Assembly (NCBI RefSeq): GCF_963675165.1
Contig: NC_087390.1
Span: forward strand, 1,507,501-1,571,500
Reading direction: 5' to 3'
Source of the DNA: Halichondria panicea
Taxonomy: Eukaryota; Porifera; Demospongiae; Suberitida; Halichondriidae
DNA length: 64,000 nt
Shown here: positions 14,655-42,800 of the stretch, one piece after another
Layout of the letters: every line of letters begins with the position of its first letter
Numbering within the stretch: position 1 is the stretch's first letter
Made by a program: the position numbers and the translations under genes
Notes under the pieces: model-generated
What the model was told of the DNA's origin: nothing
The model's database searches: none
Seen by the model: only the letters and a program-made list of their open reading frames with translations

Positions 14655-14844
14655 GTAAAGTTTGTATACGAGTGTAGTACACATAGTGATATGTACTCTA
14701 TATAATTATATAACTGCATGGTGAGAACTCGAATAGAAATGGTGCATGTACTGATCCGTTATACGCCTATACCTGAACACTTTGAGTCAGAATTATCCTG
14801 TGTAATCAATAATGTGTCGATCAATTACACGCATGCACAATGTT

Positions 14845-14903
14845 AGCCTCAATCCCAGGCCGATCCGTCTCCAATTGAACGCTAGGTCACCTTCTCGAGG
14901 CTA
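14845..14903. mobile_element. Short AGCCTC...GAGGCTA element, 10-bp TSD
   Basis: A 59-bp sequence begins AGCCTCAATCCCAGGCCGA and ends CTCGAGGCTA, flanked by the perfect 10-bp direct repeat GCACAATGTT (14,835-14,844 and 14,904-14,913). It belongs to the family at 33,487-33,573 and 34,624-34,680, but its inner part is no longer a hairpin. Confidence 0.8.
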
Positions 14904-16050
14904 GCACAATGTTAGATGGTGTTGATAAAGCCACAGTATTACATCACACATCTTCGTCAGCTCAAGCATCTGATCTGGTACATTTCCGTCTAACGTTAAT
15001 TGACTTGCATGATGGCCATTGCAGGTATACAGTAACATGTAGGGCAATAATTTAATATGCCAAACCAATCTAAAGGTACTGTCTGTTCCCTGTGCAGATG
15101 AGGTTTCAAGCGTAAGGACGTCAACAACATAGAACCTTTTGAGAGTGCAGCCGATACTGAAAATGAACCATTCTCAACTATCCCAAAAAATGGTTTATAA
15201 GTACAATTTCATGTGCGCAGCATCTCAACAAACTTCTAGTATACTCTATGGGATGCCAGAGCAGATTGGAACAGCCTGGCCATACAGTTGGACATACCGT
15301 CAGGAACGCGTATACACTGTTAAAAATGGGGTGTTACGTAGCACACTAATTTTAGTAGGTAAATGTCAGTGGTGTGTTAATGAACACACTCGTGTGTTTG
15401 TCGTACTCAACAACACACTTGGAGTGTAATAGAACACACTTGGGTGACACAACAGAATGGTGTGTTACTGAACACACTGACATCCATACAGTGGTGTAAA
15501 GTAGCACACGATATATAAGATATTAAGAAGGTCTTTTTACTTTTCAGATACCAGAATTAATATTTATGTTCCACTTAGTACAGTTAGATCACCAAGAGTG
15601 CTAAGTATGTGCAAGTGAAATAAGAGTTGAAATGCTGCAGTCCCTGCAAATGCGGAAAACAACTTGCTATCACTCTCAAAGGAAGCTTTATACTTTGCAA
15701 ACCCAGAAATCCAGGTCCTAAAAGTATGGCTATAGTATATAGAAGCCTGCAAGATTCTACATGCATGCTATATAGAGCTAAGTGGCTAAGTCCAGACCTT
15801 CTGTGTGCGCATGCGCATTGAGGCTAGAAGCACATGTAGTGTGCTTTAATTAAAATCAACAAAGACTCAAGAACTGGAGAAGAACTCAATTTAGCTCTAT
15901 ACTAACTGCACTGAGTGTTTAGCTTTCCTGAAGAACATACACTACTGCAGCACTTCATGGAGCTTCCAAAGGCCATTCATGTGGTAAGCTGGTGCAATAC
16001 TATGTGTGATATGATCATATAAATTATATATAGCCTTTCTCACAACTCAG

Positions 16051-16153
16051 CCCAGAACTTGACCTCATTTTTGACTTGAGCACTGGTTTGGGTACAGAAG
16101 TGACTATTCTCTGGGACATACTAACTGCTATAAATGTGCAGAAAAGTATCCAG
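16051..16153 (+). CDS. Exon-like segment inside a TIR element
   Basis: Bounded by CTCACAACTCAG and CAG/GTACGT, open in one frame: PELDLIFDLSTGLGTEVTIL, WDILTAINVQKSIQ. Good splice-site match and protein-like composition, but no family recognised. It is either a captured host exon or an exon of the plus-strand Death-domain gene whose intron carries the transposon ends. Confidence 0.35.
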
Positions 16154-16493
16154 GTACGTGGAGTAATAGATATGCTTACCTATACCAGACATAATTATAT
16201 TTATTATTTAGGACAAGACAAGATGACAAGATGACAAGATGACTTCAATCAAAATGTGCTACTGCTGCTGTGCGCTCTTTCGTCAAAAAGGGAACATGTG
16301 ATGTGCTGTCATTAACAGTAATGTGTTGTAATAATCCGTATAACATTTAAATAGTCATTCGTTGTATAGATGTGTTTTTAATTTGTGTTAAATGACTTGT
16401 ACATTTCGTTGAAATTGCAACAGCACCAAGCTAACTAACATAGAGCAACTACACTATACCGTCCTGAAAATAACCAAGTTACGAGGTGCACAT

Positions 16494-16668
16494 GCACTGT
16501 ATGCATGTGCTAGACAAACATTATTAGTGTGCTTGAAGGCACTGTATGCATGTGCTAGACAACACATTTACCATTATTAGTGTGCTTGAAGGCACCTATG
16601 CATGTGCTAGACAACACTTTACCATTATTAGTGTGCTTAAAGGCACTTATGTATGTGCTAGATAACAC
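16494..16668. repeat. Tandem repeat, about 3.5 units of 45-56 bp
   Basis: Units start with GCACTGTATGCATGTGCTAG and end with ATTATTAGTGTGCTTGAAG; the unit length varies by small internal indels. Confidence 0.85.
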
Positions 16669-16847
16669 ACTTGCCAATGTGTTCAGCGACACACAACAGT
16701 CTATGTGTTACAAAACACCTTTAGGGGTGTCAAATTTAAAGTGTCATACCAACATCCCAAAAGTGTGTTCCAGAACACATCATTTTTAACAGTGTATAAG
16801 GTTAGGTGATTTTTAAGTGTGCCCACTCCTCATAATTCATTGTGCAG

Positions 16848-17029
16848 GAAATTAGAGCGGATAATCGGGACGGGGGCGTTCGTGAAATGTTTGTAGCAAT
16901 GCTCGAGGAGTGGTGAATGGTCCCGTTGATCTAGATGACCTCGTGACTGCTCTTCGATCTGAGCCTGTAGGCAGGGGGGACATGGTGCGAAAAAAGATTA
17001 CAAGCGGAGAGATAAAACAACCACAATGA
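16848..17029 (+). pseudogene. Death-domain terminal exon (plus strand), frameshifted
   Basis: After an acceptor CATTGTGCAG, the frame reads EIRADNRDGGVREMFVAMLE, EW and stops. One base out of frame it continues VNGPVDLDDLVTALRSEPVG, RGDMVRKKITSGEIKQPQ and ends at TGA (17,027). This is the second half of a Death domain: the IRADN...MLEEW helix pair and the LV.ALRSE.VG.G closing helix. The frame break near 16,910 would truncate it. Upstream exons are uncertain (see 14,477 and 16,051). Confidence 0.6.
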
Positions 17030-17226
17030 CATAGATTCTAGATGTCACTAACACATAGAGTTTTTTTATACTAGCTTGAAGCATGGTCATACAAATCTTA
17101 TCAGAGTTCACAGTCGTAATTATAGCTACGTATATAATTATTTTATAGAAAGACAAGCAAAATTATATAATTATGAAGTGTAAAAAAGTAGAACTCTTGA
17201 CAATAATCTCCAAAATAATAATCAGG

Positions 17227-19510
<2,284 letters not shown>

Positions 19511-19639
19511 CTTATCTTGGACTGATAAACCTCAGGAATTGTCAATTTGTTGTGGCGATGGGAGTGGGGAACAGGCATTAAATAGATGTGGTGTGTGTGT
19601 GTGTGTGAGGGGTAGCAGCAGAAATAAGAATTGCTCTCA

Positions 19640-20110
19640 AATATGAAAGGTCTCTTTCTAATTAAGCTTTCAGAAAATCAGAAAAGCGTTGAAATTGGAT
19701 ACCCGGAATTAAGTATGGCAGATGAAAGAGTCCCGGAACCATTGAATAAACGGAGGGGGGTTGTAGTTAAACATATATGTTTCTTTCAACAGCCATAACT
19801 TCAGTACTGGTGATCCAATGTCAACATTTTTATGATTTTCTGAAGCGTACAAAGAGACCGTTCAAATTATGTCTTTAAATCCAAACTTTCATTGGGGCCG
19901 TAATTTGCCATTTTTCGCCTTTGGACCATGGTATTGCCAAATTGGCAAACACTTTTATCTCTTAAATATGAACTTTGATGACACCATTTGAAAGGTTTAT
20001 TTCTAAGCTTTCTGAAAATCATAAAAGCGTTGAAATTAGATCCACGGAATTCAAGTTATGGCAGCTGAAAGAGTCCCCAAACCATTGGGAAGCTATTACA
20101 CTTTGGTGCC
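19640..20110. repeat. Dispersed repeat R3 (duplicated with the CPVL block)
   Basis: Two R3-type units with AAGCTTTCAGAAAATCAGAA and the GTTGAAATTGGATACC region. The same units are at 59,900-60,400 in copy B. Confidence 0.6.
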
Positions 20111-20253
20111 CTTAGTGACTTTTGCTGGATTTTGTCTATAATTATAAGCAAGCAACTCCATTAAACCTGGGCTGTAATAATTATAGAGGGTGTCCTAGTG
20201 GTTAGTGTACACACATAATACACTTGACTCTGCCTGAGTGTCCTACTAATAAC

Positions 20254-20393
20254 CTGATGGCCTTGAGTTGGATGTTGTTACTGATCCTCTCCAGTACTGC
20301 CTCCCCAGACACAGTGTCTATGATGAGCACACACTCTTTAGTGACAGGCTTCTTGGGTCCTCTGAACTGGGCCACATCATCAGTCCACTCAGC
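20254..20393 (-). pseudogene. EAF exon 3, orphan copy
   Basis: Encodes AEWTDDVAQFRGPKKPVTKE, CVLIIDTVSGEAVLERISNN and IQLKAIR, the end of the conserved N-terminal domain of ELL-associated factors (pattern KP..KECVLI...G...LE.IS.NIQ.K..R). Splice sites CAG (20,394-20,396) and GTTATT are preserved. Exons 1 and 2, present in the 60-61 kb copy, are absent because similarity between the two blocks stops at about 20,699. It was therefore carried along by a duplication that included the CPVL half-gene and is not expected to make EAF. Confidence 0.7.
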
Positions 20394-20707
20394 CTGTGTG
20401 GAAGTGGAGGGGGGCAGAATGATTGTAGTTTATATAGTCAAACCTGTCTATTGTAGTCATCCTCTATAATACAGCCACTCAACATCTCCATAGCATATAA
20501 TTATGTGTTTGGACCTGACTGTGTTAGGAGGCCACCTCTCTATTGGCAAACATGCCTCACAATAAAATAGCTGATTGGAGACCTCATAATTATAACTACA
20601 CAACTACATGTACTTGCTTATTAAGTTTGCTCCCTAGAAACCTACTAATAGATCTAGCTCAGTTGCTGTGAAATAGCAAATAGTGTGTGATATGATGCTT
20701 GCAATAC

Positions 20708-20883
20708 CTTGCCGTCTTTAATTCTCAATCCATCGACATTGACCACATTGGCAAACTCAGGTGTGAATACTAATGAGGAAGAATGCTCGAGCTCATCAAA
20801 ATCTTCATTTCTTGTCGTATCTTGAACTGGTTTGGCAACAAGAAGGTCATTTTGGAGTTGAATGAGCGTCACATGCACATTAA
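20708..20883 (-). CDS. Possible exon of an unidentified minus-strand gene
   Basis: Open stretch with acceptor TTCACACAG and donor GTATTG, encoding NVHVTLIQLQNDLLVAKPVQ, DTTRNEDFDELEHSSSLVFT, PEFANVVNVDGLRIKDGK. Farther upstream (about 21,010-20,930) another open piece reads CVRLWEGAAQYLTESGRKAA. The two do not join in phase with the splice sites I can see. No family recognised. It begins just beyond the edge of the CPVL/EAF duplication. Confidence 0.35.
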
Positions 20884-21272
20884 CTGTGTGAACGAGAATG
20901 GATTATTAAAACAGAGAATAAAACTAACTTGTGCGTTTAGCCTAGCTGCTTTGCGACCACTTTCAGTCAAGTATTGAGCTGCTCCCTCCCACAGTCGAAC
21001 ACAGGGCGGATGAGATTTTGGCCAGGCTTCTCAATAGCTGGCCTTTGTTGCATGTAGCATGCATGTACGGTCCACTTTATACGTATATACATTGTAAAAT
21101 GAGGCCTCAGGCTCTTCTGCTGTGGTACATGCATGGTCCTGGATATAACTTGTTTTAAATAGATGATGGCTTCTTATAGCTGGTTGTTTTGGAGTGTTCC
21201 CTGACATGATTCTATTGATGGCAAGGTCTTTGCTCCAGGCTGTCTTGATGATGTCTTTCAGCTTGTTGGTTA

Positions 21273-21335
21273 GTCTCACGAATCAGCCGCCCTTCCTAGG
21301 TCTCTCACTTAGGAAGGGCGGCTAATTCGTGAGAC
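21273..21335. repeat. 63-bp hairpin
   Basis: GTCTCACGAATCAGCCGCCC pairs with GGGCGGCTAATTCGTGAGAC around the loop TCTCTCACTT; one mismatch in about 27 pairs. No clear target duplication found. Confidence 0.85.
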
Positions 21336-21699
21336 TGGCATGCAATTAGGGTTTGTCTAAGTTCAACGTGTTTGATGCACTCCTTTATGAGACCCCACCC
21401 CTCCATTAGCTAGCTACTCTGCATAATATCTGAGACCGAGCTGCATGCATGGCCGGGCAGTGGGCAAAGGGATTATAGCACAAGCACAAGGCCTAGGGGA
21501 ATTAAATCTACTATGACTTGAGGGATAGGAAGTAGACTCTCCATTGTCTGCAGTATAGACTTGATATACTACTTGCACATGTCTGCAGTAGACTAGCTAC
21601 ATGCACAATGACTGAATTAAGTAACATCGAATCTTTCATAAGATAGCCAAACTATCTATAGATGTTGTGACAAAGTTCCAAACCTTAGCCGGAAACTGT
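21336..21699. other. No gene recognised
   Basis: Unique-looking non-coding sequence between the hairpin and the foldback arm. Confidence 0.3.
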
Positions 21700-21935
21700 T
21701 GGCCTTTTCTCTCCCTAACCGATTACCCACTATAACAATTGGGTACTGTTTTATTAATCACCACAAACCCACCACCTTATGTTGTCATGGAAACAATTTT
21801 GGATATGTTGTAGCTTATTCATTCACCTACACAATGGTATCAGCAGATTTTCTTAGAAATGTTCCAATCATAAGATATTTACATTTAAGTACAACTACTC
21901 ACACATTTTTGGTATTCTACTCTTTAGACTGGATG
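21700..21935. repeat. Single arm of the 1.23-kb foldback family
   Basis: Matches one arm of the element at 50,612-51,842, e.g. ACCGATTACCCACTATAACA, CAAACCCACCACCTTATG and AAGATATTTACATTTAAGTA. Only one arm is present, so it is a solo or broken copy. Confidence 0.75.
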
Positions 21936-21949
21936 CACTGTATGTTCTA

Positions 21950-22782
21950 TGCCGTGAAACACATTGATATCATTATACTGTTGTATAATGAGCATTGTCT
22001 TGTTTTATCTGTTAGTGACATGAAGTCCATCGAAATAAAGAGATTCGCTAACATAATGAATACACATATAGAGCAGAATCTTGGATCGGAACTTTTAGGA
22101 CACACTGTGTTGAATGTATGGTCATGTATATGTATTTTACAATGCATGCCCTGTATCGTTTAATACTGCAATATCTTCTACTCACTTATTCAATGATGCT
22201 GCACTATTTTATACTTTTTCTCCACATGCACATCTGAATGCATGCAGAGGTATTTATGATAAAGGTTATAGTTGACACCAGAGACATTCAGTGCACTATC
22301 TAATATAGAAGTGTAGATATGACGCCATTTGGGTATCAGCCACAAAGAAGGAATCAATATTGGGGAACCACGGGGAAACTGCCTTGGGCTCAACCACAAA
22401 GAAGGAATCAATATTGGGGAACCACGGGGAAACTGCCTTGGGCTCAACCATAAAGAAGGAATCAATATTGGGGAACCACTGGGAAACTGAGCCTATACCG
22501 CAATGGTCAGACAACAGATGGCCATGCCTTTATGTGGTTGAACTGGTATTGCTTTCAAACTCCCCTTAGTACATGGCATGCGGAAAACAAAGCATTTAAA
22601 ACGCTTGTTGACTATAGCAATATAGTATAGTAAAACAGAAAAGAGTTCAGCATCCATTGAATAAGTGAGTTACAGTAACTATAGGCACATGCATTACATA
22701 TAATTATCGACTTACAGCCATTCTTGGAGCAGCATAATGATTAACATGCCAACAATCATCCTCACATACATGCACCTCAGAT
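21950..22782 (+). repeat. Upstream block of Pmp copy 1, with a 54-bp tandem repeat
   Basis: Non-coding block repeated almost identically upstream of Pmp copy 2 (39,055-39,836) and partly at 37,465-38,030. It contains a 54-bp unit (CACAAAGAAGGAATCAATAT ... GCCTTGGGCTCAAC) present about three times at 22,340-22,490. It is the likely promoter/5' region of the Pmp gene, since it is conserved immediately before the start codon in both copies. Confidence 0.6.
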
Positions 22783-25700
22783 ATGCTGTCTAGAAATATT
22801 CTCAGCTAGTTAATACTGCTACTGATCCTAGCTACTGTTACCAGGAGTGAGCACTATCACATTGTGCCAGTGGATTCAACCAGCTTGTGTTATGACTATC
22901 GAAATGGAGCTTGTTTCACTCTCGAGCAGCTTGTTCAAACACTGAACTTGTTATCTGGTGGAGGCAATCTCACCTTGAGCTTTCTACCTGGAGATCATGT
23001 GTTAACTGAGCAGCTATTGATTCGTAACTTCTCACATGTGCAAATCACTGGCCAGAACAAAAGTACAACTGTAGTTGGATTCCATAGCAATGGTGCGATA
23101 CGTTTTGTTAGCCTTACCAAATTGAGTATTGAACACTTGGGTTTCGTTGGAGTGAATGTCGGACCACCAAACTCACATCAAGGAGTAATCATTGTTGGTT
23201 CCCATGATGTCTACATTAACGATTGCTACTTGATGGAGTTTGGCTCAAATCAGCCGGAAAAAACACACATAGCTAAAACTAAAACTGCAACGATTGAGAG
23301 CACTCTCTTTATGAACAACACTGATCAGGCACTGCACGTTGAGGCTGATGATGTATACATAACAAATAGCGAGTTCACTAAAAATAGTGGAGGTGCAGTT
23401 CACATTAAGTCAAACAACTCTCTGATCAACAACACAGGGTTCAACTACAACAGTGCTGAGAACGGAGGAGCAGTAGAAGTAGTATCTGGTACTGTAGTGA
23501 TCACTTCGTGTACCTTCACAAATAACAAAGCTTCTGTGTGGGGTGGAGCCATTGCTGTTGTCTCAAGCAGTGTGTCCATCTCCAACAGTGAACTGACACA
23601 AAACAGTGCATATGGCGGCTATTACGGCGGTGACGGCGGAGCGATTAATGTTGACTCTGGTAATGTGTCCATCTCCAACAGTGAGCTGACAAACAACGGA
23701 GCTGGTGATGGTGGAGCGATTAATGTTCAGTCAGGCAGTGTGTCCATCTCCAACAGTATGCTGACAAACAACAGAGCTGCCCATTATGGTGGTGGTGGAG
23801 CGATTAATGTTTACTCAGGTAGTGCGTTCATCTCCAACAGTACGCTGACAAACAACAGTGCTGAGTATGGTGGAGCGATTAATGTTGACTCAGGTAGTGT
23901 GTCCATCTCCAACAGTGAGCTGACAAACAACAGAGCTGGTATTGGTGGTGGTGGAGCGATTAATGTTTACTCAGGTAGTATGTCCATCTTCAACAGTGAG
24001 CTGACAAACAACAGTGCTGAGTATAATAGTGGAGCGATTAATGTTGACTCAGGTAGTGTGTCCATCTCCAACAGTGAGCTGACAAACAACAATGCTGAGT
24101 ATAATAGTGGAGCGATTCGTGTTGACTCAGGCAGTGTTTCCATCTCCAACAGTACGCTGACAAACAACAGAGCTGGTGTTGGTGATGGTGGAGCGATTTA
24201 TGTTCTGTCAGGCAGTGTTTCCATCTCCAACAGTACGCTGACTAACAACAGAGCTGGTACTGGTTACGCCGGAGCGATTAAAGTTGACTCAGGTAATGTG
24301 TCCATCTCCAACAGTGAGCTGACTAACAACAGTGCTGGCTATGGTGGAGTGATTAGTGTTGACTCAGGTAGTGTGTCCATCTCCAACAGTGAGCTGACAA
24401 ACAACAGTGCTAACCACCAAGGTGGAGCGATTATTGTTTACTCAGACAGTGTGTACATCTCCAATAGTGAGCTGACAAACAACAGTGCTAACGATGGTGG
24501 AGCGATTTATGTTGACTCAGGTAGTGTGTCCATATCCAACAGCGAACTGACAAAAAACATTGCTAAAAGTAATGGTGGAGCGATTGATACTAACTCAGGT
24601 AGTGTGTCCATCTGCAACAGTGAGCTGACACACAACAGTGCTAACCACTATGGTGGAGCGATTCGTGTTATTGAATCAGGTAGTGTGTCTATCTCCAACA
24701 GTAAGCTGACAAACAACAGTGCTAACAAAAGTGGAGCCATTTATGTGTTCCAATCTTCCACCTTGATTATCAACAACACTTACATTACTAATAACATAGG
24801 CAGTTTGAACATTTCGCAGTCAAATATAACATTTATTGGAAGGAATATTGTCAGTAATAATGGTCGTCCCATTTATGCTTTCAGTAGTCGAATCGAGTTT
24901 AATGGACCTACAACACTGAGTAACAATTGTGGTGTGCTGGGAGGAGCTATTAGTGCTGTCCAGAGTGAAATAGACATTAACACAGAAGGAGTTATCATCA
25001 CCAACAACACAGCTACCTCAGGAGGAGGGATATTTCTGAGAGAGAGTACACTCTTTGTAAATGAGCCAATAAAGATCTATCACAATACAGCACACCAGGA
25101 TGGTGGAGGTATTTATGCATATTCTAGCAGAGTTGAGTTCCAATCTGTGCTGATGCGGGGTCCATATGGTTATCCAATTCCTCCAAATACACAGAGTGAG
25201 ATTGCTCACAACATTGCTGAGAATAATGGTGGAGGTATTTATGCAGTATCTTCAACTATCAAACTTACTCAATCACACGTCAACATTGACTCAAACACAG
25301 CTAATGCTAGTGGAGGTGGAGTGTTTCTACGGCAAAGTTCCAAACTGTACTTATTTAAAATGGATGTTGACTATTTTGGGAACAAATTAATTGTCAAGTT
25401 AATGATTAACAACAACTTGGCCAAATACGGAGGGGGGATACTTGTGGCAGATGACACCCAGAGGAGCGCATGTGGAGGAGGGATCACAGAAGATGATGAT
25501 ACTCGCACCATTTTTGCTGGCTGCTTCATTCAAACAATTAAACTGTATGAGTTAATAGGCTATCCTGATCATCCAAACTATTTCAACACATTCATGACTA
25601 ACAACACGGCTACCCAGTCAGGAGCAGACATCTACGGAGGTCTGTTGGACAGGTGTACAATTAATCAAAATGCTGAATATGACATTTCTTCAAATGGATC

Positions 25701-27858
25701 TATATTGGACTACATAAATAACACCATCAAATCCTCCACCGAATTATCGATCTCCTCTGGGCCTGTTCGGGTGATGTTTTGTAACTATTCTCAAAATGAC
25801 TATGTTTCTCCAAGAAAGGGACACACATTTAAAATCAGTGTTATGGCTGTTGACCAAGTTGGAAATCCAACGGATGGTACAATTCGCAGTTCTGTTATCA
25901 CTGATAGTGGATTTGATCGTCTCAAAGAAGGACAGGCAAAACAAACAGTTGGCAATCAGTGCACAGAATTAGAGTACAATGTATTCTCACAAGATAGCTT
26001 TGCTCAAGTGGAACTCTATGCTGAGGGTCCATGCATCAATTTGGGAATTTCAAGACAACTCATCAATATTTCTTTTAAATCCTGTATATGCCCTATTGGA
26101 CTCAAACCAATTCAGTCCGATACTGAGTGCAAGTGTGACTGTGATCCAGACTTGCTACAATATCAGATTACAAACTGTTCTGAGGAAAATGGAACCATAA
26201 AGCTGGAAAGTAATAACAACATATGGATAGAAGTCATAAATACCACCAACAAAACAGGGTATGTTGTTAGTAACTGTGTATTTGACTATTGTGTAGAAAA
26301 ACCAGTCAACATCAGTATAAGCAGCCCTGACGAACAGTGTGCCTACAATCGAAGTGGTGTCTTGTGTGGAGAATGTGAACCAGGACTCAGTGTTATGTTG
26401 GCTACGTCAAAATGTAAAGAATGCTCTAATCTTTACCTTCTTTTGCTAATTCCATTTGCGCTGGCTGGCATATTGCTAGTTACTTTAATTCTCGTGCTCA
26501 ACATCACTATAGCAACTGGGAATATTCATGGTCTCATTTTTTACGCCAATATACTAGTAGCTAATAGAGTGATTTTCTTAGTTAACGTAAACAACTTTTT
26601 AACAGTTTTCGTATCCTGGGTGAATCTTGATTTGGGTATAGAGACATGCTTTTACGATGGAATGAACTCTCAAGCAAAAGTGCTCCTTCAACTTGTCTTC
26701 CCAGCTTACTTGTTTCTTCTAATGTTTCTTGTTATAATTTTGAGCAACTATTTTGACTCGTTTGCAAAGCTCCTCTCCAACAGGAACCCAGTTGCTGCAC
26801 TAGGCACACTCGTCCTACTCTCTTATTCTAAATTTTTACGGTTTATCATTGCTGCACTACAAAACAGGGTCTTGGATTATCCTGACGGTTCAACCAACAC
26901 TGTTTGGTTGTTTGACGGCAATGTGCCATACTTCACTCCCAATCACATTCCTCAGTTTTTTGCTGCTGCCATTATCCTCATTGCTGGTGTATTGTTCACT
27001 GTACTGCTCTTCTTTGGACAATGGCTTCCGCACTGTTCAAAAGTTATGAAATGGACTAAGAACACAAAATACATCGGCTTCATGGATGCATACCATGCTC
27101 CATTCACTCCCAAGCATCGCTACTGGGTGGGACTGCTCCTCTTTGGCCTGATTGCTCATAATCTAGTAGTTGCCATAGCTCCAGACACTTTTCTCCCTGT
27201 GCTATCATCTGGGTGTATTGCATTCGGACTGATATCATTGAACAACCGAGTGTATAAAAAACAACTTAATGAATATCTAGAAGCACTGTTTTTACTTAAT
27301 CTCGGCGTTCTATCTATTGGTACCTCCTATGTTGTTCAAACACACCAACAGCAAGAAACACTGGCTTTTGTTTCAATGTCCATAGCTTTCATTCTCTTTG
27401 TGATAATAATCAGCTACCATTTCCACCACTTCATACTGAAGAAGACCAAAATATGGCTCAAGATAAAGGAAGTTGTTAATGATATCAAAAGGAACCTATG
27501 TGCTGGTGCTGCAGACATTAGACTCCAACGAGCTAACAATGCCCGGGAAATGTATCAGCAGGTAGCCGATGAAAATGATGACGATGAATTACTCGAAGCA
27601 GTAGACGACTATGAACAAAGAGACGCCTTGAACCCACCTTACACTGATGGAGCCGTGGAAGAAGCTGACGCTGATCGTTACATCACTCCTCCCATCATCA
27701 GACCAGCCACGAGGCCGGACCAGCTGAGACTATCCTACATGGATGATCTAGCCCCCCTCACCACAGAGGACTACAGACCAGCCCCTCCCCCTCAAAGAGT
27801 CAACCATCGTCCGGTTGTTACACACACAGAAATCGGCCCGATACACAATCAAGTGTGA
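22783..27858 (+). CDS. Pmp-like beta-helix multi-TM membrane protein, copy 1
   Basis: One intron-free frame. By comparison with copy 2 the start is ATG 22,783 (MLSRNILS), but codon 9 is TAG (22,807-22,809) where copy 2 has TGG, within the signal peptide. The open frame after it runs from 22,864 for 1,664 codons. Layout by codon from 22,864: about 30-640 right-handed beta-helix with 15 short repeats of the type GGAINVDSGSVSISNSELTN; about 640-950 more degenerate GG[AG]I/TNNTA coils; about 960-1,060 a possible Ig-like domain (GHTFKISVMAVDQVGNP); about 1,065-1,185 Cys-rich; about 1,190-1,530 eight or nine membrane segments (first LLLLIPFALAGILLVTLILV); then an acidic, proline-rich tail. Repeats resemble chlamydial polymorphic membrane protein repeats (GGA[ILV] and xxN motifs). 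Likely a cell-surface receptor or adhesion protein; the function is unknown. Translation would need read-through, an alternative 5' exon or a later ATG, so it may be a recent pseudogene or null allele. Confidence 0.8.
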
Positions 27859-28580
27859 ACTGTGTTATTTAGCTGAGGTACCTTTATAACATGTACAACT
27901 TAAAATAATGTTCGTAGGCATATCAACAGTTACTGACGTTAGCAATTGCTTATGTTGCACCATTGTAGTTTAATTAAAGAGAGATAGGATTTTTTGTAGA
28001 GTTAAAAATTAATTGTTGTGCTACTATAGCTATATAATTGAATGTTTGGTTCCCTTGGCTAACCAGACATGTATATGTACCGTATAATGATATAATTATA
28101 GTGGGTAAGCTTCGAGGGTCTAATGTTTGCAAACAAGTAACCTTCACAATAAATAATTATCGTAATTATACGCAATGAAGTATCAACTGTATTATAATTA
28201 TAGCTACCCCGCTATATATGTGTTTGCATGTTAGTGTTGGTTCAATCACTATATAGCACAACGGTCAGTGAACAGGTATACGTTATATTTATGGGATTAA
28301 TTATGTGTATAAAGACAATCTTTACCAATACAGCTGCTGTAAAACTCATTAGCTATATATATACGTGAAGATCTATATAGTCTATATAATGCAGGCATAA
28401 TAACTGTAATGGTAAATCATCTAGCCCCTTCTTCTATCCTGTGGCTAAGGCCAAGAGTGCATGCACACAACCTGATCGATTTTGAGCTTCTCACTATATA
28501 TATACTATATCTATATACATGCATGCACATGTAGCTACATGCATGTAGTCTGTGTATAAAAATGATTGGCATAATAACTA
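27859..28580. other. Intergenic between Pmp copy 1 and SDR copy A
   Basis: AT-rich, no gene. Contains TACCGTATAATGATATAATT (28,078), a fragment also present after Pmp copy 2. This interval is the empty site for the 954-bp insertion at 44,845-45,798 in the duplicate. Confidence 0.5.
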
Positions 28581-30703
28581 TTATACAACTAGTATGTCTG
28601 GTAATTGATGTTTGAGCTCTCTTTCTGATTTTTCTCTTTCTGATGTAGGAGGTTGGCGCAGTAGGTACTTGCAGAGTGAGGGAGCATACTGAGCCAGGTA
28701 AGGAAAGAGGAGGTAGGGCTGCTTGGAGATCCACACCTGCATTAAGAACATGTTTACATCCATGCACCGGCGTGCTACAGAAACAAATATATAGGCTAGC
28801 TACAGTAGACTCTCGTTAATCCGGTCACCCTTGGGACCATGCAGCTTGGCCGGAATAGCGAGGTGGCTGTAGCTCAGGAAATAGCCGCGGCTTAAAAACG
28901 ACCTTACCTCGAATCTAATTACTACTTAATTACTAACTGCGGTTCTTGTCTCGAGGATAATGTAATCATTCTGTTATTTTATTTGCTAAACCACACCCTA
29001 AACGTCATATCCGGCCGTAATATACGTATAAAATTACATGCATTGAAAACCTTGTTTGGGACAGCCAGCACTGGCCGGTAAACGTACTTCAGGGTGAGTT
29101 TTGTGCAGTAAACATATAGCTAGCATTCCGTGCCAAGCCAAATGGCTGGTATATCGAGGTGGCCGTACTTCAGAGAGCCGGAATAGCGAGAGTCTACTGT
29201 ATATGGCTATATGAATTTACTTGTTGGCATATTATATATCGATACTCAAAATCGTATAATAGTGAACTGGTGTGTTCATTACCTCATTGAGTTGGTTGGA
29301 CGCAGCAATCAGAGTGAGCTCCACACATCTGAATGCATGCGATATAAGAGTATACATATAACACCAGAGATATTCAGTGCACAAATAGAAATGAAGGGCC
29401 ATTATTAAAATACATTGCTGTCAAAATTATTACTGAACTAGACCTTTTCGCAACACATTATAATTCTGAAGGCCTTGAGTATATAGTAGCACTTGACAGG
29501 GGAATAACTTCATTGAGCTGACCTTTGGACTCTCATCCTGCCCTCAATGAGAGAGTGCTTCTTCTTGCTGGTGGATCCATCAGACAGGAGAGCATTCTCT
29601 GCCACAGCTGTCCTCACTGGCCCCGGGCACACGTTAGTTATATGGACGTTCTTACCCATAACCTGTAGCGAGCAAAGAGATTCTTTAAGTGACAATACTG
29701 TCATGCAGGATAAGCCCCTATAATTAATCATATATCGGATGTCTAAAGACACAAATGTTACAGTAATGATGCTGTACAAAGCATATCACAAATCCGATAC
29801 ATCTGCCCACTCTGATTAATAGTGTCTGTTGCTTCACTGAAATGTCACAGTACATTGAATGCATATCAACCTCTATCCTCTAGCTCACGTGTGTGTATAA
29901 TCAAACCTTGATATCAACAGACAGTCTAAATTAGGACAAAGCCATAACAAACGATGATAACATGACATGACCACAAAGCCATAAGAGAAAGTACAAACTA
30001 TTTCACAACATGACATGCTACACACCTCCCAGCGAAGGGAGTCCATCATTCCCATCAGCCCAAACTTGGCTATGGTATACGAAGTTCTTCTGTTAGTACC
30101 AAACTTCCCCGCAATGGACAAGATATTGATCACATGACCAAAACCAGAGGAGAGCATTCCTATAGCATGCACAGGCGTGTAGTACACTATCAAAACTTAT
30201 GCCCTCAATTCATACCTGGTAAGACGTCATGGGTCAGTATCCAGGGTGCAAAGAGGTCAACCTCCATGAGACGTCTGTGTGTAGGCTCTTAATTGCATAT
30301 CGATAAACAGCGACCTGGTAGAAACACCTAAAGTGGAAGGTTTAGTGTACTAAACAACCTTTGACTGTTGCATGTAGTACCTGCATTGTTGATGAGAATG
30401 TCTATTCCTCCAAACAGAGCCTTTGCCTTCTCAGTAGCCTCCCTAGTGGCAGAAGGGTCACTCAGGTCAACTGGCAGGATCCTGAATATGGAGCAAACAA
30501 AATTGTTTTGTTTATTGCAATTTCTGAAATCACTTCCTGAAGAGGCTCCAGTGACCCACACCACATTGTTGTCAAAGTAACGGGTGTCTAGTGTTCTGCT
30601 GAGGAGTGTACGTGAGATCAGCATCAGCTCTGACAAACACTACCGGCTTGTACAGCATGTAGAGCAAGGCCAGCACCAGCAGGATCACTAACCAGGGGGA
30701 CAT
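28581..30703 (-). pseudogene. DHRS7: DHRS7-type short-chain dehydrogenase, copy A (broken)
   Basis: Exons on the minus strand: 1 (30,703-30,534), 3 (30,481-30,381), 4 (30,327-30,216), 5 (30,159-30,026), 6 (29,662-29,523), 7 (29,328-29,283) and 8 (28,736-28,581). The catalytic exon 5 is intact (Ser in NILSIAG; YTIAK). Lesions: exon 2, which completes the TGxxxGIG cofactor loop, is deleted; exon 1 has a 4-nt insertion (GTAC) near 30,612; exon 4 has a 4-nt insertion (TTAA) near 30,290. The family are ER-membrane-anchored NADP(H)-dependent oxidoreductases of retinoids, steroids and quinones. Loss of the cofactor loop means no enzyme is expected. It lies downstream of Pmp copy 1 on the opposite strand, as SDR copy B does beside Pmp copy 2. 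Confidence 0.85.
28803..29199. mobile_element. pogo/Tigger-like MITE, TA target
   Basis: 397 bp in intron 7 of SDR copy A. Termini CAGTAGACTCTCGTTAATCC (left) and GGAATAGCGAGAGTCTACTG (right), flanked by TA. The terminus type (CAGTAGA..CTCG.TTATCCG) is that of pogo/Tigger non-autonomous elements. It is shared with copy B (46,483-46,881) and absent from copy C. Confidence 0.85.
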
Positions 30704-30841
30704 CTTGATAACTATAATACTATAGCTAGCCCCTCCCCCCCATGAGTCAATTTAGAATTATAATGAGATAAGATCTAGGGTAGACAATTCGGAAAAATCA
30801 TATAATTAATTCTTTTTATCTTTATTCATCTTCTCTTTCCT

Positions 30842-32801
30842 CTAACTCCACCAGTGCAGTAGGTACTTGCAAAGTGAGGGAGCATACTGAGCCAGGTAGG
30901 TGCACAGGAGATAGGGATGCTTCGAGATCCATACCTGCTTGGATAAGAAAAGTATATTTAACTAACGAATACCATGTGATTGAGATACCAATCCGAGTAT
31001 TTATGAATTGTTGATGGCGTACCTCATAGAGCTGACTAGACGCATCGATCAGAGTAAGCTCTGCACACCTGTATACGCGATATAAATAGAATGGAGTCTT
31101 AGTATTAGTCTCGCACAGCCAGCCCCGGATGTTTTCTATTTGAACGCTAGGTCGATAACATGGGTCTGGTGAACTTCCTATAATGTACAAGTTGTGTCGA
31201 CACGCCAAAGATTTCTCGGCGTGTTAACCGCTGCGGTCAACTGGAGGCAAAAAGAAGGAAAGATAGTTATGCAAAGCAGCCTCTTGTTGCCCAGTTTCTA
31301 GCTAAATGCAACTGACAATAATTATAATGGCTTATTTATGCCCTAAGACTATCCCAGAAGATCACAAGTTCCATGGGTAGTTGTACAGAAGCAAGAGCTG
31401 AGTTGTAGATAATTAGCTTCAAGGATGTCTCCTACTAGTACTACATCTATACCTGAAACCAGCATTCCATATTCAAGTGGCAGTACTGCAAATAAGATTT
31501 GATTTGCATCTTTTTCTCTGAGAACTGAATCCATGCCATTGTTGAGAACCTTGAAACATAACATGCCTGCATGGTTTAAACTCAGTCTAGATCTTTCTAG
31601 TGACTCTGAGTAGTTGCTATAGCTTCTCTCCTTCTTGCATATGTAGCTTTAGATCCATCCTGATTTGAGCACTGAGCACTGAGGACTCTCAACTATACTG
31701 TACATATAAATTTATTTGCAGAACTGTGGTTTTCACATTATTGTAACCACAATGTGGTCATCAACCATGAATAATATTATTAATTTTGTGACCACTATTT
31801 ACTATCACCCACTTAAGGTCTTGCACAACTCGTTGATATAGGAAGTTCTCCCAGACCCTATTTTTAATCGGGGCTGGTGCGAGACTATCTTAGTATGTGG
31901 CTAGAATCAGGTCAAAGTGCATTCACTAGATTCTTTTTATGCCTCGGTGCGCATGCGCAAGCGAGGTATACGGTAGTGTGTTTGTGTGTCTGTGTGTGTG
32001 TCTGTGTGTCTGTGTGTGTGTGTGTGTGTGTGTGTAGACCGCTATACAGCTGCTCAAGGATGAATCAAGTGCAAGTAAGAGTTTCTATAGGCTTCTAGTC
32101 ATGTTTAGTTTGATTTTAATTCGTGGATTTGCAAAATAATGCTTCGTTCTCGTACTTGGAATGTTATTGCAGCCTTTTCAGAAGAGTCCGTAGCAAAACT
32201 TGTTCACCGAGTGTTACTACTCTACTTAGTAGTTAGCTCTGCATTAGAACGCTAGCTATTGGTAGCTGCAAGAGTGAGCAGAGAGCTGCAAGGCTCTGCT
32301 GACTTGCCGCCATAATTTTAGACTTGAACTTTTGGCATCTATCGTTTTTAATTAACAACAATCATGGTTGATCATTACCCACTTTCGGTTGATTGCATGC
32401 AGCAAAATTAAAGCTGATGTTCATCATGATAATTATAATCAATGTGCGTATAAAAACTAGCTATTAGTAGTTTTATGTTATGTAGCTTTGGCACCTCCAC
32501 CGAGGCATCAGCACCAGCGGTGCTTTCATTTTTAGCAGTACTGCTACATCTATGCAATATTTGCACATTAATTATTAATTTGGCATAAACTGAGATGAAC
32601 GATATTTTCTATTCCTAAGATATCCATATGATTATTATACAAATGCACACACTGAGTTGACCTTTGAACTGTCATCCCGCCCTCAATGAGAGGATCTTTC
32701 TTGTTGTTGGTGGATCCATCAGACAGGAGAGCATTCTCTGCCACAGCTGTCTTCACTGGCCCCGGACACACGTTAGTCACATGGACATTCTTATCTATAA
32801 T
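30842..32801 (-). pseudogene. DHRS7-type SDR, copy D (3' fragment)
   Basis: Only the last three exons remain: 6 (32,801-32,662; NVHVTNVCPGPVKTAVAENA), 7 (31,068-31,023; CAELTLIDASSQLYE) and 8 (30,934-30,842; VWISKHPYLLCTYLAQYAPS). Exon 8 ends early at TAG after LLHWWS, without the charged tail of the other copies. Intron 6 has been enlarged by a dispersed repeat (31,930-32,340). No exons 1-5 were found upstream. It is the most diverged copy in the cluster, so the cluster is older than the Pmp-SDR segmental duplication. Confidence 0.8.
31930..32345 (+). repeat. Dispersed GCATGCGCA repeat with TG run
   Basis: Begins GCCTCGGTGCGCATGCGCAA, contains a (GT)n run at about 31,976-32,035 and matches 3,110-3,480 in inverted orientation. 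Confidence 0.7.
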
Positions 32802-32854
32802 CTGTATAATTATAGTGAGCAAAAATGTGAGCACACATTATAATTACACTGACA

Positions 32855-33120
32855 CCTGATGTGTGTGTGTGTGTGTGTGTCTGTTCCAGCTGTAACTGCT
32901 TAACGGTTGCAATGCGACGAAAGCTAACAGCTTCTATAGGCTTCTAGCCACGTTCTCTTGGATTTTGATTCGTGGATTAGCAAACTAAAGCTTCTTTCTC
33001 GAGTTATGGCTAGTTTGACCATAGATTGAAAAGGAAGGGGATTGGAAACGAAAATGTTTGCGTGAAACACTCCGCGTTATAGGGCGTGGCTAAAACTACA
33101 GTCAGCATGCTCATTACCTG
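32855..33120 (+). repeat. Dispersed GCATGCGCA-family repeat, partial
   Basis: Starts at a TG run (32,860-32,881) and carries the landmarks CTTCTAGCCACGTTCTC and GATTCGTGGATTAGCAAACT. It matches 45,580-45,760 inverted and 36,100-36,180. Confidence 0.6.
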
Positions 33121-33486
33121 TCTTGGCTGCCATACAATGTGCTGTACATAGAAATGGTGAAATTGATCACTTTTAATGTTGAATATTCTAAAAAGTAAAA
33201 AGAATATAGCTCTAAAAGGTCGACTAAGCAACGCAACCCAGAAGCGGATCCAGGGGGAGATCCAAGGGAGCAAAGGAACCCCCCTTTTGCTCAAAATATT
33301 AAAATTGATTTTTAGCAATCTACAGTCATTTACAGTCATGTTTTACCTATTCTACTTATGTAGTAATGTCAATACCTGCATGTAGTCCACTCTAGAAGGA
33401 ACAGAACTTAGCTAAAAGCAGTGGCAGCTTCTTTACTCTGATCGCGTTGCAAAAACTGCATAGTAAGCAGTAATTAATTGGATACA

Positions 33487-33573
33487 AGCCTCGATCCCAG
33501 GCCGAGTTTTCGCTTTTATAACGGTTAGGCAAAACCGTTATAAAAGCGAAAACTCGGCCTGGGATCGAGGCTA
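33487..33573. mobile_element. 87-bp hairpin element, perfect 10-bp TSD
   Basis: AGCCTCGATCCCAGGCCGAG pairs with its complement ending CTGGGATCGAGGCT over 39 bases with a 5-base loop. The direct repeat ATTGGATACA lies at 33,477-33,486 and 33,574-33,583. Nested in the hAT element. Confidence 0.9.
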
Positions 33574-33652
33574 ATTGGATACAAGATGGGCCACATCCAT
33601 GCAGCTTTGATTGTGGTAATTATGTTCAACCAGACTTACTTATTATACAACA

Positions 33653-34065
33653 ATGAGTAACAGGAAGAGACCAAGTCAAGTGCCAATTTCAACATTCTTC
33701 AAAAAGAGTAAAGCAGGTACGGTTTCACATAAATAAAAATCCAAATCATATAAATAAGGAGCTGCCTTGAGAGAGTGCCATGTGATGACATATCCAAATG
33801 TGAATCTTCTGTTGACATTGGCTCTGACACTTCCTATTACATCTTGTGAGAGCGAGAGGAGTTTCAGCCAACTAAAAACTTATTAAGACAGCCCGACGTG
33901 ATACCATGTCGGAAATCGAGATTGGGTTCACTTGCTTTAATGAATATCAATCGTGACCGATGCAACCAGCTTTTGTCTGCAGAAAATATGAAAAAATTAG
34001 TAGTATCATACAGCCAGCTACACCCAAGGAGAATGAAACTCCCTTTTATGCTACCTGATGATTGA
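33653..34065 (+). pseudogene. hAT transposase remnants (N-terminus plus dimerisation domain)
   Basis: ATG 33,653 starts MSNRKRPSQVPISTFFKKSK, the usual opening of TTF-zinc-finger-type hAT transposases, followed by a GT at 33,718. After a short gap come TYPNVNLLLTLALTLPITSC, ESERSFSQLK and, after frame changes, SRLGSLALMNINRDRCNQLL to LPFMLPDD and TGA (34,063). This is the hAT C-terminal dimerisation motif (SCERSFS.LK ... RL..LALM.I). The BED/catalytic DDE part is missing and there are stops and frame changes, so no transposase is made. Confidence 0.7.
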
Positions 34066-34282
34066 ATGTCTTTATAATTATGTGTTTTTTACAATCAATT
34101 ATTAAATACTCTAAGCTCTTGTATAAAAATTACTCATTTACTCACTCACACACTTACTTAACTTCTTGATCTTACTATCACTGCACTGGAGCCATAGCTA
34201 TAGCTAGACATAATCTTACATCTACTACGGTACTATAATAGACCTCCCTAGCCCTTGGCCTAGCACTCAGGTGACAGGAAAC

Positions 34283-35513
34283 GACACCGGTGTAGAAGCG
34301 ATATGGGCCCCCCCCTTATTTTGGGGCCCCCGGCCCTAAAACGCTAGCGATTTGGGGTGTAAGGGGGGTCCCATTGCACTGGCGGTATACGCCCCCCTTA
34401 GTGATTATAGGGCCCCCCTAGAGAAGTCTATTCTGAGCAGTGGAGTCAAGCCAGCACAACAGTAATAGGAGGTTGAGTTGAGAATCAATGGCTATAATGT
34501 TTATGTAGATCTAAACTCCAATACAGAATATATTACTAGCCTATAATCTGGGCTGCTTGGTCACTGACGATAACAGTATAATTATGTGCAAAATAAGGCC
34601 TGTATTACAGTGTGGCAGCACATAGCCTCGATTCCAGGCCGATTAAAATACGTATTTTAATCGGCCTTGAATCGAGGCTAGGCAGCACATAGCCATTGTA
34701 TACACAGCACATGCATGCATGCATTCATATAGGCTGAGCATATACTACTGAGAATACAAGCAGCAGCCGCAGCCCATGCACTTTGTTATCAAGAACTTTT
34801 CCTGGCGAAGTTGAGAATAAACTGCAAATCAAAGAGCAAGAAATTGTGGAGGATGCATGGTAGTCAGCCACCACCTGTGGACACAGTTGTTCTTTTTTCC
34901 ATATGTGTTTTATTACCTCTATCTCAGCCCTATGTATGTAGAGCAAGGCTCTATGGTTTACTTGTGTTGTGAAGAGGCCCTGCTCGTCTTTGTTCCTATG
35001 ACAGTAATGTATGTCTCACTCTGCATGCATGTTCTGTGTGTGCATGCATGTGTTTCTCTCTATTATCTCTTATTATCTAACGAACAGAGCCAGTTAAAGG
35101 AACAGTAATTTATTCCGTAACTGATAACAGGGGCATAAAATAACAACTTTCTCGAGTTCAGTTAAAGTATTGAGGATAGATCTACATCTTCCTGCTCTGG
35201 TATAGCTAGCCTAACATTAGCCAATAGCACCTGCAAGTCATGGTGTTATTAAACTCTGCACTTAGTCAGCAAGAGAGCTATGCAAGATCTAGTCAGCAAG
35301 GGACATCTAGATTTACTTATACCATGAGGCTGAGGCTGAGGCTACAAGCATATAGATACCATCTACACTACAAGTTATAAGTGGGGGCCCCATATCGCTG
35401 GAGGGGCCTCAAAGCGCTAGTGAAATAGGACCGTGGGGGGGCCCCAAATCACTAGCGTTTTAGGGCCCGGGGGCCCTGAAATGGGGGGGAGCCCCATATC
35501 ACTTCTACACCGG
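34283..35513. repeat. Inverted-repeat structure inside the hAT element
   Basis: Left arm (about 34,283-34,430) starts GACACCGGTGTAGAAGCGAT and holds GGGGCCCCCGGCCCTAAAAC. The right arm (about 35,385-35,513) is its imperfect inverse, ending CACTTCTACACCGG. Arms are strikingly C/G rich compared with the AT-rich surroundings. It may be a nested foldback transposon. No gene is recognised between the arms apart from the hairpin at 34,624. Confidence 0.6.
34624..34680. mobile_element. 57-bp hairpin element, perfect 10-bp TSD
   Basis: AGCCTCGATTCCAGGCCGAT pairs with ATCGGCCTTGAATCGAGGCT around ACGT. The 10-bp direct repeat GGCAGCACAT lies at 34,614-34,623 and 34,681-34,690. Same family as 33,487 and 14,845. 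Confidence 0.9.
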
Positions 35514-39054: not shown

Positions 39055-39836
39055 GTTCTATGTCGTGAAACACATTGATATCATTATACTGTTGTATAAT
39101 GAGCATTGTCTTGTTTTATCTGTTAGTGACATGAAGTCCATCGAAATAAAGAGATTCGCTAACATAATGAATACACATATAGAGCAGAATCTTGGATCGG
39201 AACTTTTAGGACACACTGTGTTGAATGCATGGTCATGTATATGTATTTTACAATGCATACCCTGTATCGTTTAATATCTTCTACTCACTTATTCAATGAT
39301 GCTGCACTATTTTATACTTTTTCTTCATACATCTGAATGCATGCAGAGGTATTTATGATAAAGGTTATAGTTGACACCAGAGACATTCAGTGCACTATCT
39401 AATAGAAGTGTAGATATGACGCCATTTGGGTATCAGCCACAAAGAAGGAATCAATATTGGGGAACCACGGGGAAACTGCCTTGGGCTCAACCACAAAGAA
39501 GGATTTAATATTGGGGAACCACGGGGAAACCGAACCTATACCGCAATGGTCAGACAACAGATGGCCATGCCTTTATGTGGTTGAATTGTATAGCTTTCAA
39601 ACTCCCCTTAGTACATGGCATGCGGAAAACAAAGCGTTTAAAACGCTTGTTGACTATAGCAATATAGTATAGTAAAACAGAAAAGAGTTCAGCATCCATT
39701 GAATAAGTGAGTTACAGTAACTATATAGGCACATGCATTACATATAATATTACATAATTATCGACTTACAGCCATTCTTGGAGCAGCATAATGATTAACA
39801 TGCCAACAATCATCCTCACATACATGCACCTCAGAT
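39055..39836 (+). repeat. Upstream block of Pmp copy 2
   Basis: Near-identical to 21,950-22,782; the 54-bp repeat is present about twice here. It directly precedes the ATG of copy 2. Confidence 0.75.
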
Positions 39837-42800
39837 ATGCTGTCTAGAAATATTCTCAGCTGGTTAATACTGCTACTGATCCTAGCTACTGTTACCAGGA
39901 GTGAGCACTATCACATTGTGCCAGTAGATTCAACCAGCTTGTGTTATGACTATCGAAATGGAGCTTGTTTCACTCTCGAGCAGCTTGTTCAAACACTGAA
40001 CTTGTTATCTGGTGGAGGCAATCTCACCTTGAGCTTTCTACCTGGAGATCATGTGTTAACTGAGCAGCTATTGATTCGTAACTTCTCACATGTGCAAATC
40101 ACTGGCCAGAACAAAAGTACAACTGTAGTTGGATTCCATAGCAATGGTGCGATATGTTTTGTTAGCCTTACCAAATTGAGTATTGAACACTTGGGTTTCG
40201 TTGGAGTGAATGTCGGACCACCAAACTCACATCAAGGAGTAATCATCGTTGGTTCCCACGATGTCTACATTAACGATTGCTACTTGATGGAGTTTGGCTC
40301 AAATCAGCTGGAAAAAACACACATAGCTAAAACTAAAACTGCAACGATTGAGAGCACTCTCTTTATGAACAACACTGGTCAGGCACTGCACGTTGAGGCT
40401 GATGATGTATACATAACAAATAGCGAGTTCACTAAAAATAGTGGAGGTGCAGTTTACATTAATAAGTCAAACAACTCTCTGATCAACAACACAGGGTTCA
40501 ACTACAACAGTGCTGAGAACGGAGGAGCAGTAGAAGTAGTATCTGGTACTGTAGTGATCACTAGGTGTACCTTCACAAATAACAAAGCTTCTGAGTTTGG
40601 TGGAGCCATTGCTGTTGTCTCAAGCAGTGTGTCCATCTCCAACAGTGAGCTGACAAACAATAATGCATATAGCGGCGATGGCGGAGGAGCGATTAGTGTT
40701 ACCTCAGGCAGTGTGTCTATCTCCAACAGTGAGCTGACAAACAATAATGCATATAGCGGAAGAGCGATTAATGTTACTTCAGGTAATGTGTCCATCTCCA
40801 ACAGCGAGCTGACAAACAATAGTGCTGACAATTTTGGTGGAGCGATTAATATTGACTCAGGTATCAGTGTGTCCATCTCCAACAGCGAGCTGACAAATAA
40901 CAGTGCTTATTTTGGTGGAGCGATTTCAATGTGTCCATCTCCAACAGCGAGCTGACAAACAACAGTGCTTACTATGGTGGAGGAGCGATTGGTGTTGATT
41001 CAGGTACTGTGTCCATCTCCAACAGCGAGCTGATGAACAACAGTGCTAACCATGGCGGAGCGATTAGTATTTACTCAGTCAGTAGTGTGTCCATCTCCAA
41101 CAGCGAGCTGACAAACAACAGAGGTACTAAGTATGGTGGAGCGATTTATGTTGTATTAGGCAGTGTGTCTATATCCAACAGCGAGCTGACAAACAACAGA
41201 GCTGACTATGATGGTGGAGCGATTCATAATTTTGGCAGTGTGCACGTGTCCATATCCAACTGTCAGCTGACAAACAACAGTGCTAACCGCTATAGTGGAG
41301 CGATTTATGTTGACTCAGGCAGTGTGTCTATCTCCAACAGTGAGCTGACAAACAACAGAGCTAACTCTGGTCGTTGTGGAGCGATTGGTGTTTTTGAATC
41401 ATGCAGTGTGTCCATCTCCGACAGTACGCTAACAAACAACAAGCGATTTATGTCCAATCTTCCACCTTGATCATCAACAACACTAACATTACTAATAACC
41501 CAGGCAGTTTGAACATTTTGCAGTCAAATGTAACATTCATTGGAAGGAATATTGTCAGTAACAATGGTCGTCCCATTTATGCTTTCAATAGTCGAATCGA
41601 GTTTAATGGACCTACAACACTGAGTAACATTGGTGGTGTGTTTGGTGGAGCCTTCAGCTCTGTCCAGAGTGAAATATACATTAACACAGAAGGAGTTATC
41701 ATCACCAACAACACAGCTACCTCTGGAGGAGGGATATTTCTGAGAGAGAGTGCACTCTTTGTAAATGAGCCAATAAAGATCTATCACAACACAGCACACA
41801 AGGATGGTGGAGGGATTTATGCATATTCTAGCTAGCAGAGTTGAGTTCCAATTTGTGCTGATGCAGGGTCCAGATGGTAGCCTAAGGCCACTTCCTCCAA
41901 ATACACAGAGTGAGATTGCTCACAACATTGCTGAGAATGGTGGAGGTATTTATGCAGTATCTTCAACTATTAAACTAACTCAATCATAATAATGTCAACA
42001 TTGACTCAAACACAGCTAATACTAGTGGAGGTGGAGTGTATCTACAGCAAAGTTCGAAACTGTACCTATTTAAAACGGATGAAGAATATAAGATTCAGGA
42101 TCGATATGTCAAGTTAATGATTAACAACATCTTGGCTCAATACGGAGGAGGGATATTTGTGGCAGATGGCACACAGAGGAGCGCGTGTGGAGGAGGGGTC
42201 ACAGAAGATGATGATACTCGTAACATTTTTGCTGGCTGCTTCATTCAAACAATTAAACTGTATGGGTTCGACAGGCCTGATTTAAACTATTTCAACACAT
42301 TCATGACTAACAACACGGCTACCCAGTCAGGAGCAGACATCTACGGAGGTCTATTGGACAGGTGTACAATTAATCAAAATGCTGAATATGAGATTTCTTC
42401 AAATAGATCTATATTGGACTACATAAATAACACCATCAAATCCTCCACTGAATTATCTATCTCCTCTGGGCCTGTTCAGGTGATGTTTTGTAACTATTCA
42501 CAAAATGACTATGTTTCTCCAAGAAAGGGACACACATTTAAAATCAGAGTTATGGCTGTTGACCAAGTTGGAAATCCAATGAATGCTACAATTCGCAGTT
42601 CTGTTATCACTAAGAGTAGAGTTGGTCGCCTCAAAGAAGGACAGGCAGAACAAAATGTTAGCAATCAATGCACAGAATTAGAGTACAATGTATTCTCACA
42701 AGACAGCTCTGCTCAAGTGGAACTCTATGCCGAGGGTCCATGCATCAATTTGGGAATTTCAAAACAACTCATCAAAATTTCTTTTCTACCCTGCACATGC

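Follow-up and report, generated by a model that had tools for sequence, protein, structure and literature searches.

Within a 64-kilobase (kb) window of the genome of the sponge Halichondria panicea (C14:1,507,501-1,571,500; "the window" denotes this whole stretch), three short inserts share the ends TAGCCTC...GAGGCTA, and we consider them, with reasonable confidence, to be miniature, non-autonomous terminal-inverted-repeat DNA transposons that duplicate 9 base pairs (bp) of their target and are probably moved by a Mutator-like transposase. The leftmost insert, a 60-bp asymmetric element on the plus strand (14844..14903; TAGCCTCAATCCCAGGCC...TCGAGGCTA), lies between two copies of the 9-bp target duplication GCACAATGT (14835..14843 and 14904..14912), and its core is found, with up to 3 mismatches, at 3 places genome-wide (all genome-wide counts cover 131.5 megabases on 39 contigs). 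The second, at 33486..33573 on the plus strand, is an 88-bp hairpin with a perfect 40-bp stem, a 6-nucleotide loop and A, not T, as its 5' base; it is flanked by the 9-bp duplication ATTGGATAC (33477..33485 and 33574..33582). The third is a 58-bp hairpin (34623..34680, plus strand) with a single stem mismatch, flanked by the 9-bp duplication GGCAGCACA (34614..34622 and 34681..34689), and its core recurs at at least 204 places in the genome. Three inserts with common ends, each bracketed by its own perfect direct repeat, had been reported in the original prediction, which also described two of them as near-perfect hairpins; both observations hold, and the folding analysis bears out the second, giving -52.9 kcal/mol for the 40-bp stem of the 88-bp insert (z-score -18.15) and -27.4 kcal/mol for the 58-bp insert, with 26 paired bases and 1 mismatch (z-score -11.55). 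The insert at 14,844-14,903 has a z-score of 0.02 and is no hairpin. In the window as a whole, the terminus pattern matches 6 times with up to 3 mismatches, compared with a mean of 0.01 after shuffling.

The length of the duplication is central to this reading, and here the earlier account, which held it to be exactly 10 bp and regarded this as an oddity, has to be revised. A first sample consisted of end pairs with a flanking repeat of at least 8 bp in the loci read and in the window (48 pairs, some of them overlapping or due to chance), and the 26 elements tabulated from this list were hence preselected for such a repeat. To remove this selection, a second sample of 40 short loci was picked only by the 58-bp hairpin core (38 loci) or the 88-bp junction (two loci). 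All 40 possessed ends of the TAGCCTC type together with a flanking repeat, which was exact at 9 bp in 30 loci, had one mismatch in 7 and two in 2, while the remaining locus shows three mismatches at 9 bp and reads as 8 bp. The duplications were distinct in 36 of the 40 short loci and in 63 of the 67 pooled elements. Taken in the frame T/AGCCTC...GAGGCT/A, the 63 distinct duplications comprise 49 that are exact at 9 bp, 10 of 9 bp with one or two mismatches, one that is exact only at 8 bp (with three mismatches at 9) and three that are exact at 10 bp. Since the base preceding AGCCTC is T in 61 of these 63 elements, it belongs to the element, and the true left end lies 1 base further to the left than it had been drawn. 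The 10 bp seen earlier consist of the 9-bp repeat and one further base, which matches by chance (T, or A at 33,486); the insert at 33,486, with A instead of T one of the two exceptions, may carry a genuine 10-bp repeat of its own. A 10-bp duplication as the rule is thus ruled out, and the correction to 9 bp removes the anomaly behind the apparent oddity, this length being ordinary for Mutator-like elements, whose duplications are 8-11 bp and typically 9 (here 9 bp in 59 of 63, 8 bp in one and 10 bp in three). Elements of the hAT type duplicate 8 bp of target, which does not agree with these figures.

The genome-wide search for the terminus that had been proposed as a check returned 10,565 ends with up to 3 mismatches (5291 forward and 5274 reverse), compared with 12 (8 and 4) for the reversed control. 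Instead of one tiny family conserved only at its ends, as originally supposed, the inserts represent three different derivatives (one at 200 or more places, the other two at 3 each) of a larger group. Besides the short inserts, this group includes forms of about 1.09 kb, 0.6-0.8 kb and 2 kb that share the ends and carry 9-bp repeats. The first 30 loci contained forms of about 1.05-1.09 kb with long inverted repeats, of 600-770 bp, hairpins of about 100 bp and 58-bp hairpins, several of the latter lying in one common larger flanking context and so not being independent. The interiors are heterogeneous across the forms of about 0.6, 0.7, 1.09 and 2 kb, and in the 2-kb form only short ends match. 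The one copy measured, of 1,093 bp (locus L177), has perfect inverted repeats of 86 bp and interrupts a Merlin transposase gene, the flanks of which, once joined, align across the junction with an uninterrupted homologue. Inspected by eye, the arms show no tandem unit, just recurring CCAGGCC/GGCCTGG motifs. Moreover, the outer 182 bp are identical at at least 40 places (40 scored of 1041 candidates), and given this identity some copies look very young. Sister terminus types share the design of the main terminus: one, TAGTCTCGCGAGCAGCCG, ends a 68-bp hairpin at L014, which has a 32-bp stem paired throughout, a 9-bp repeat and a core that occurs at 3 places, and another bounds a 782-bp element in the window (31106..31887, plus strand; TAGTCTCGCACAGCC...GAGACTA) between copies of the 9-bp repeat TCTTAGTAT. 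This 782-bp element and the 60-bp element at 14,844 have TTGAACGCTAGGTC in common. A further element of the group occupies 8290-9013 of the window; it begins with TAGCCTCGTTCCCAGGCC, finishes with GAGGCTA and has the 9-bp repeat CTCATTGGA on both sides, with 2 extra bases separating its right end from the right-hand repeat. A subterminal GCGCATGCGTYA and, after it, a small palindrome recur in otherwise different long forms (L010, L012, L018, L005 and L162) and may represent a promoter or transposase site common to them. Among the paper titles listed in a literature search, which did not extend to Repbase, none dealt with the TAGCCTC terminus or with a sponge hairpin family.

Among 49 perfect distinct insertion sites, CW stands at positions -3/-2 in 24 and WG at +2/+3 in 28 (backgrounds 0.143 and 0.146), with weaker K and M adjoining CW and WG and R/Y as the outermost bases of the 9 bp. 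The pattern was first noticed on the 26 preselected elements and was then checked on 26 distinct perfect sites from later loci, where CW was present in 12 and WG in 11 (p = 1e-4 and 6e-4). The target preference, KCWN-N9-NWGM, is real but loose. The tips of the element, GCTA/TAGC, match this pattern themselves, so that an inserted element leaves its duplications beside ideal half-sites, which offers a reason for the tandem pairs that share one duplication. Such pairs are readily seen in the genome, as GAGGCTA-N{3,20}-TAGCCTC is present at 228 places (control 0); among the 50 of these places that were listed, the spacer is 9 bp long in 19, and of the 41 distinct spacers in the same 50, 14 have this length and every other length is represented by at most 4. 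At L155 and L016 the order is repeat-element-repeat-element-repeat, with the identical 9 bp three times, and at L198 an upstream element end is followed by repeat, element and repeat. Copies therefore sometimes stack head to tail, sharing one duplication. With each insertion the duplications would gain an ideal half-target on one side, and a second copy could then enter the same 9 bp, which would produce the repeat-element-repeat-element-repeat arrangement. Tentatively, we suggest that the transposase might recognise a target resembling the element tips (CTA-N9-TAG), that insertions might thereby create new targets and stacks grow stepwise, and that the 58-bp hairpins might serve as full substrates. 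If this is true, few mobile units known from an animal-type genome would be smaller than the 58-bp hairpins.

The original view that the inserts are non-autonomous and belong to a group of DNA transposons with terminal inverted repeats is supported, and the corrected duplication length lies within the Mutator range. Judging from this length and from the foldback design, the family probably belongs to the Mutator superfamily; long terminal inverted repeats combined with heterogeneous interiors, as expected of Mutator-like elements, are seen here, with 86-bp perfect repeats in L177 and interiors that differ among the longer forms. We propose that a transposase encoded elsewhere would bind the ends TAGCCTCGATYCCAGGCC and excise the element, and that the excised element would be inserted at a staggered 9-bp target, giving rise to the 9-bp duplication. 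Duplications of 8-10 bp are stated to be typical of the Mutator superfamily in the report on Muta1 (PMC5225508), and several known systems appear to work in a similar way. In root-knot nematodes, the Mutator/Foldback family Tm1 combines duplications of 9 bp and foldback arms with short forms that resemble MITEs (MITE, miniature inverted-repeat transposable element) and with a Phantom-like Mutator transposase (PMC3169594). It resembles the present family in its 9-bp duplications and inverted-repeat foldback elements and, in M. incognita, in the predominance of short MITE-like forms over a single transposase-bearing form; in contrast, its ends (motifs A1/A2, GGA) are different, its arms consist of tandem units, mostly of 14 bp, its copy number is low (39 and 22 elements), its elements measure 0.17-2.5 kb compared with 58 bp here, and a transposase-bearing copy is known (PMC3169594). 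Similarly, Muta1 and its relatives in Aedes aegypti share 8-9-bp duplications, an imperfect palindromic terminal motif and numerous non-autonomous derivatives whose inverted repeats are truncated, but they differ by having autonomous copies, subterminal tandem repeats and no apparent target preference reported (PMC5225508). Tetris of Drosophila virilis, which was assigned to Mutator on its duplication length and foldback design, is likewise a foldback element with 8-10-bp duplications for which no autonomous copy is reported, although just three structurally complete copies are described and it is a source of satellite DNA (PMC4079207). The MuTAnT group of Mutator-like elements from Medicago combines 9-nucleotide duplications with a target preference; unlike the tip-like palindrome found here, its targets are TA microsatellites (PMC4486113).

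The hairpins themselves require a separate explanation. Probably formed from longer relatives, they would have originated when the interior of a longer form, for example the one of about 1.09 kb with its long inverted repeats, was lost and the arms were joined almost directly; the two arm junctions of this kind that were counted stayed rare, and one 58-bp hairpin spread widely. It is unlikely, in our view, that the hairpins were never mobile as such and that each arose where it now stands, by insertion of a long element with its 9-bp repeat and subsequent deletion of the interior, leaving the arms. Several features of the rare hairpins would fit such deletions: the 88-bp junction is present at just 3 places (up to 3 mismatches); the palindrome centres of the 98- and 101-bp hairpins differ from each other and from that of the 88-bp form, as separate deletions would give; and a 36-bp form in L150 resembles a hairpin from which the centre has been lost. 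The abundant form points the other way. With up to 2 mismatches the 58-bp core yields 204 forward and 196 reverse matches, which we count as at least 204 places because a palindrome can match both strands. Distinct duplications are carried by 36 of the 40 short loci, of which 38 belong to the 58-bp and two to the 88-bp type; the 58-bp hairpin thus moves as a unit and has spread in this form. Even for the 88-bp form, which has three different duplications at its three places, two copies have one junction in common, in opposite orientation and with differing duplications. The 58-bp unit is short and non-coding and has terminal inverted repeats and a duplication of fixed length, as MITEs do; it also has their high copy number of near-identical members at unrelated sites, in contrast to the 88- and 60-bp forms with three places each. 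The rare hairpins seem to have been produced repeatedly from a longer parent whose arms were joined. Two of the 38 loci of the 58-bp type are 59 bp long, and the main arm pairings in these 38 are GATTCAAGG with GATTCCAGG and GAATCCAGG with GAGACCAGG, besides symmetric and mutated forms; our guess is that the symmetric ones derive from stem correction. At L004 (1501-1783), an insert of about 226 bp with inverted repeats, flanked by TA, sits at the centre of a 58-bp hairpin; it has the look of a nested miniature element of the Tc1/mariner type. The family provides a clean natural setting in which to ask how short the substrate of cut-and-paste transposition may be and what follows when a target site resembles the element's own end, and it would account for the origin of some of the small perfect hairpins and tandem inserts of a compact genome.

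The identity of the transposase bears on the remaining alternatives. Profile matches in the genome numbered 31 for PF10551, 26 for PF20700 and 24 for PF12762. For PF10551, flanks of about 3.3 kb were read at 12 places (one of them extended), of 10 kb at 11 and of 3-7 kb at five (C12:1785729, C1:8643169, C1:11423995, C9:2863443 and C7:2256885), three of the 31 being left unread; for PF20700 and PF12762, the flanks of three of 26 and three of 24 loci were read. End pairs up to 6 kb apart with an exact flanking repeat of at least 8 bp were sought in L150-L172, and up to 2 mismatches in 9 were allowed in L175, L176, L181, L182, L225-L227, the extended L160 and L180. Several results weigh against a Mutator-like owner and the insertion behaviour that we ascribe to it. 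Longer elements with the same ends, which the original prediction suggested looking for, do exist (about 0.6-2 kb), whereas the transposase-bearing one that it also envisaged was not among them: in the flanks read, many of them only 3.3 kb, no transposase gene is enclosed by a pair of TAGYCTC ends that has a flanking repeat, and copies with a longer span or decayed duplications would escape this search. One copy of about 1.09 kb and one of about 2 kb, each searched in six frames, matched 0 Pfam families at E-values up to 1, and no Pfam match was obtained for the element at 31,106-31,887 in the three minus-strand frames searched. In the held-out sites, only 3 of 26 fit the target pattern on both sides and 6 of 26 on neither, with 20 of 26 fitting on at least one, and the tandem pattern of the sister type, GAGACTA...TAGTCTC, is at chance level (12, control 15). 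Outside the L150-L172 scan, the sole pair with an exact 9-bp repeat belongs to the 1,093-bp element already described from L177. A weak pair spanning the L182 gene (1 mismatch in 9) was attributed to chance, as its ends agree at 14 of 40 positions only, and so was one in the extended L160 (12 of 40, compared with 40 of 40 for the L177 element). The Mutator-like gene family at L150-L155 was rejected as the autonomous partner, the copies in L150, L152 and L155 seeming to end near CACAGCG; these copies merely host hairpins inserted near the gene-copy end. In L151, homology to other copies of the same Mutator-like gene stops at about 2927, within the left arm of a hairpin, as though the sequence had been broken at the palindrome. 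L180 and L182 carry Mutator-type transposase genes of PF20700, each followed by an apparent further domain that we take to be YqaJ exonuclease-like. An inverted repeat near L180 resembled a pogo/Tigger end and was set aside.

A Merlin (IS1016-like) transposase is a very improbable owner. Merlin duplications are 8-9 bp long and overlap with those found here, and the 24 PF12762 matches show that Merlin-type genes are present; of the three loci read, two have complete inverted repeats, but with different termini and with duplications of 8 bp, on which grounds Merlin was rejected, and the third is the gene interrupted by the 1,093-bp element of the TAGCCTC family. That the family is mobilised by an unrecognised or extinct transposase superfamily is quite unlikely. 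Such an origin would agree with the failure to find an autonomous copy even though some copies look very young, with 182 bp identical at 40 places, and with the palindromic target preference, none being apparent for the mosquito element Muta1 (PMC5225508). However, the search for an autonomous copy covered limited flanks, and 9-bp duplications accompanied by foldback derivatives are typical of Mutator-like elements.

Some minor observations concern the surroundings of the inserts and the scans. Between the two hairpins of the window, at about 33780-33890, lies a remnant of the C-terminal dimerisation region of a hAT transposase (PF05699, E-value 6.8e-7), and a PF07280 match from the same scan was ignored, being far under the family cut-off. 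Matches obtained when prokaryote contigs were scanned with a 15-base pattern were taken as chance and were not used. Finally, the window contains two related coding stretches with repeated units of the SNSELTNN type and a similar C-terminal part, one of which (22810-27858) is a single long open frame, and the other (39795-44276) is spread over several frames.

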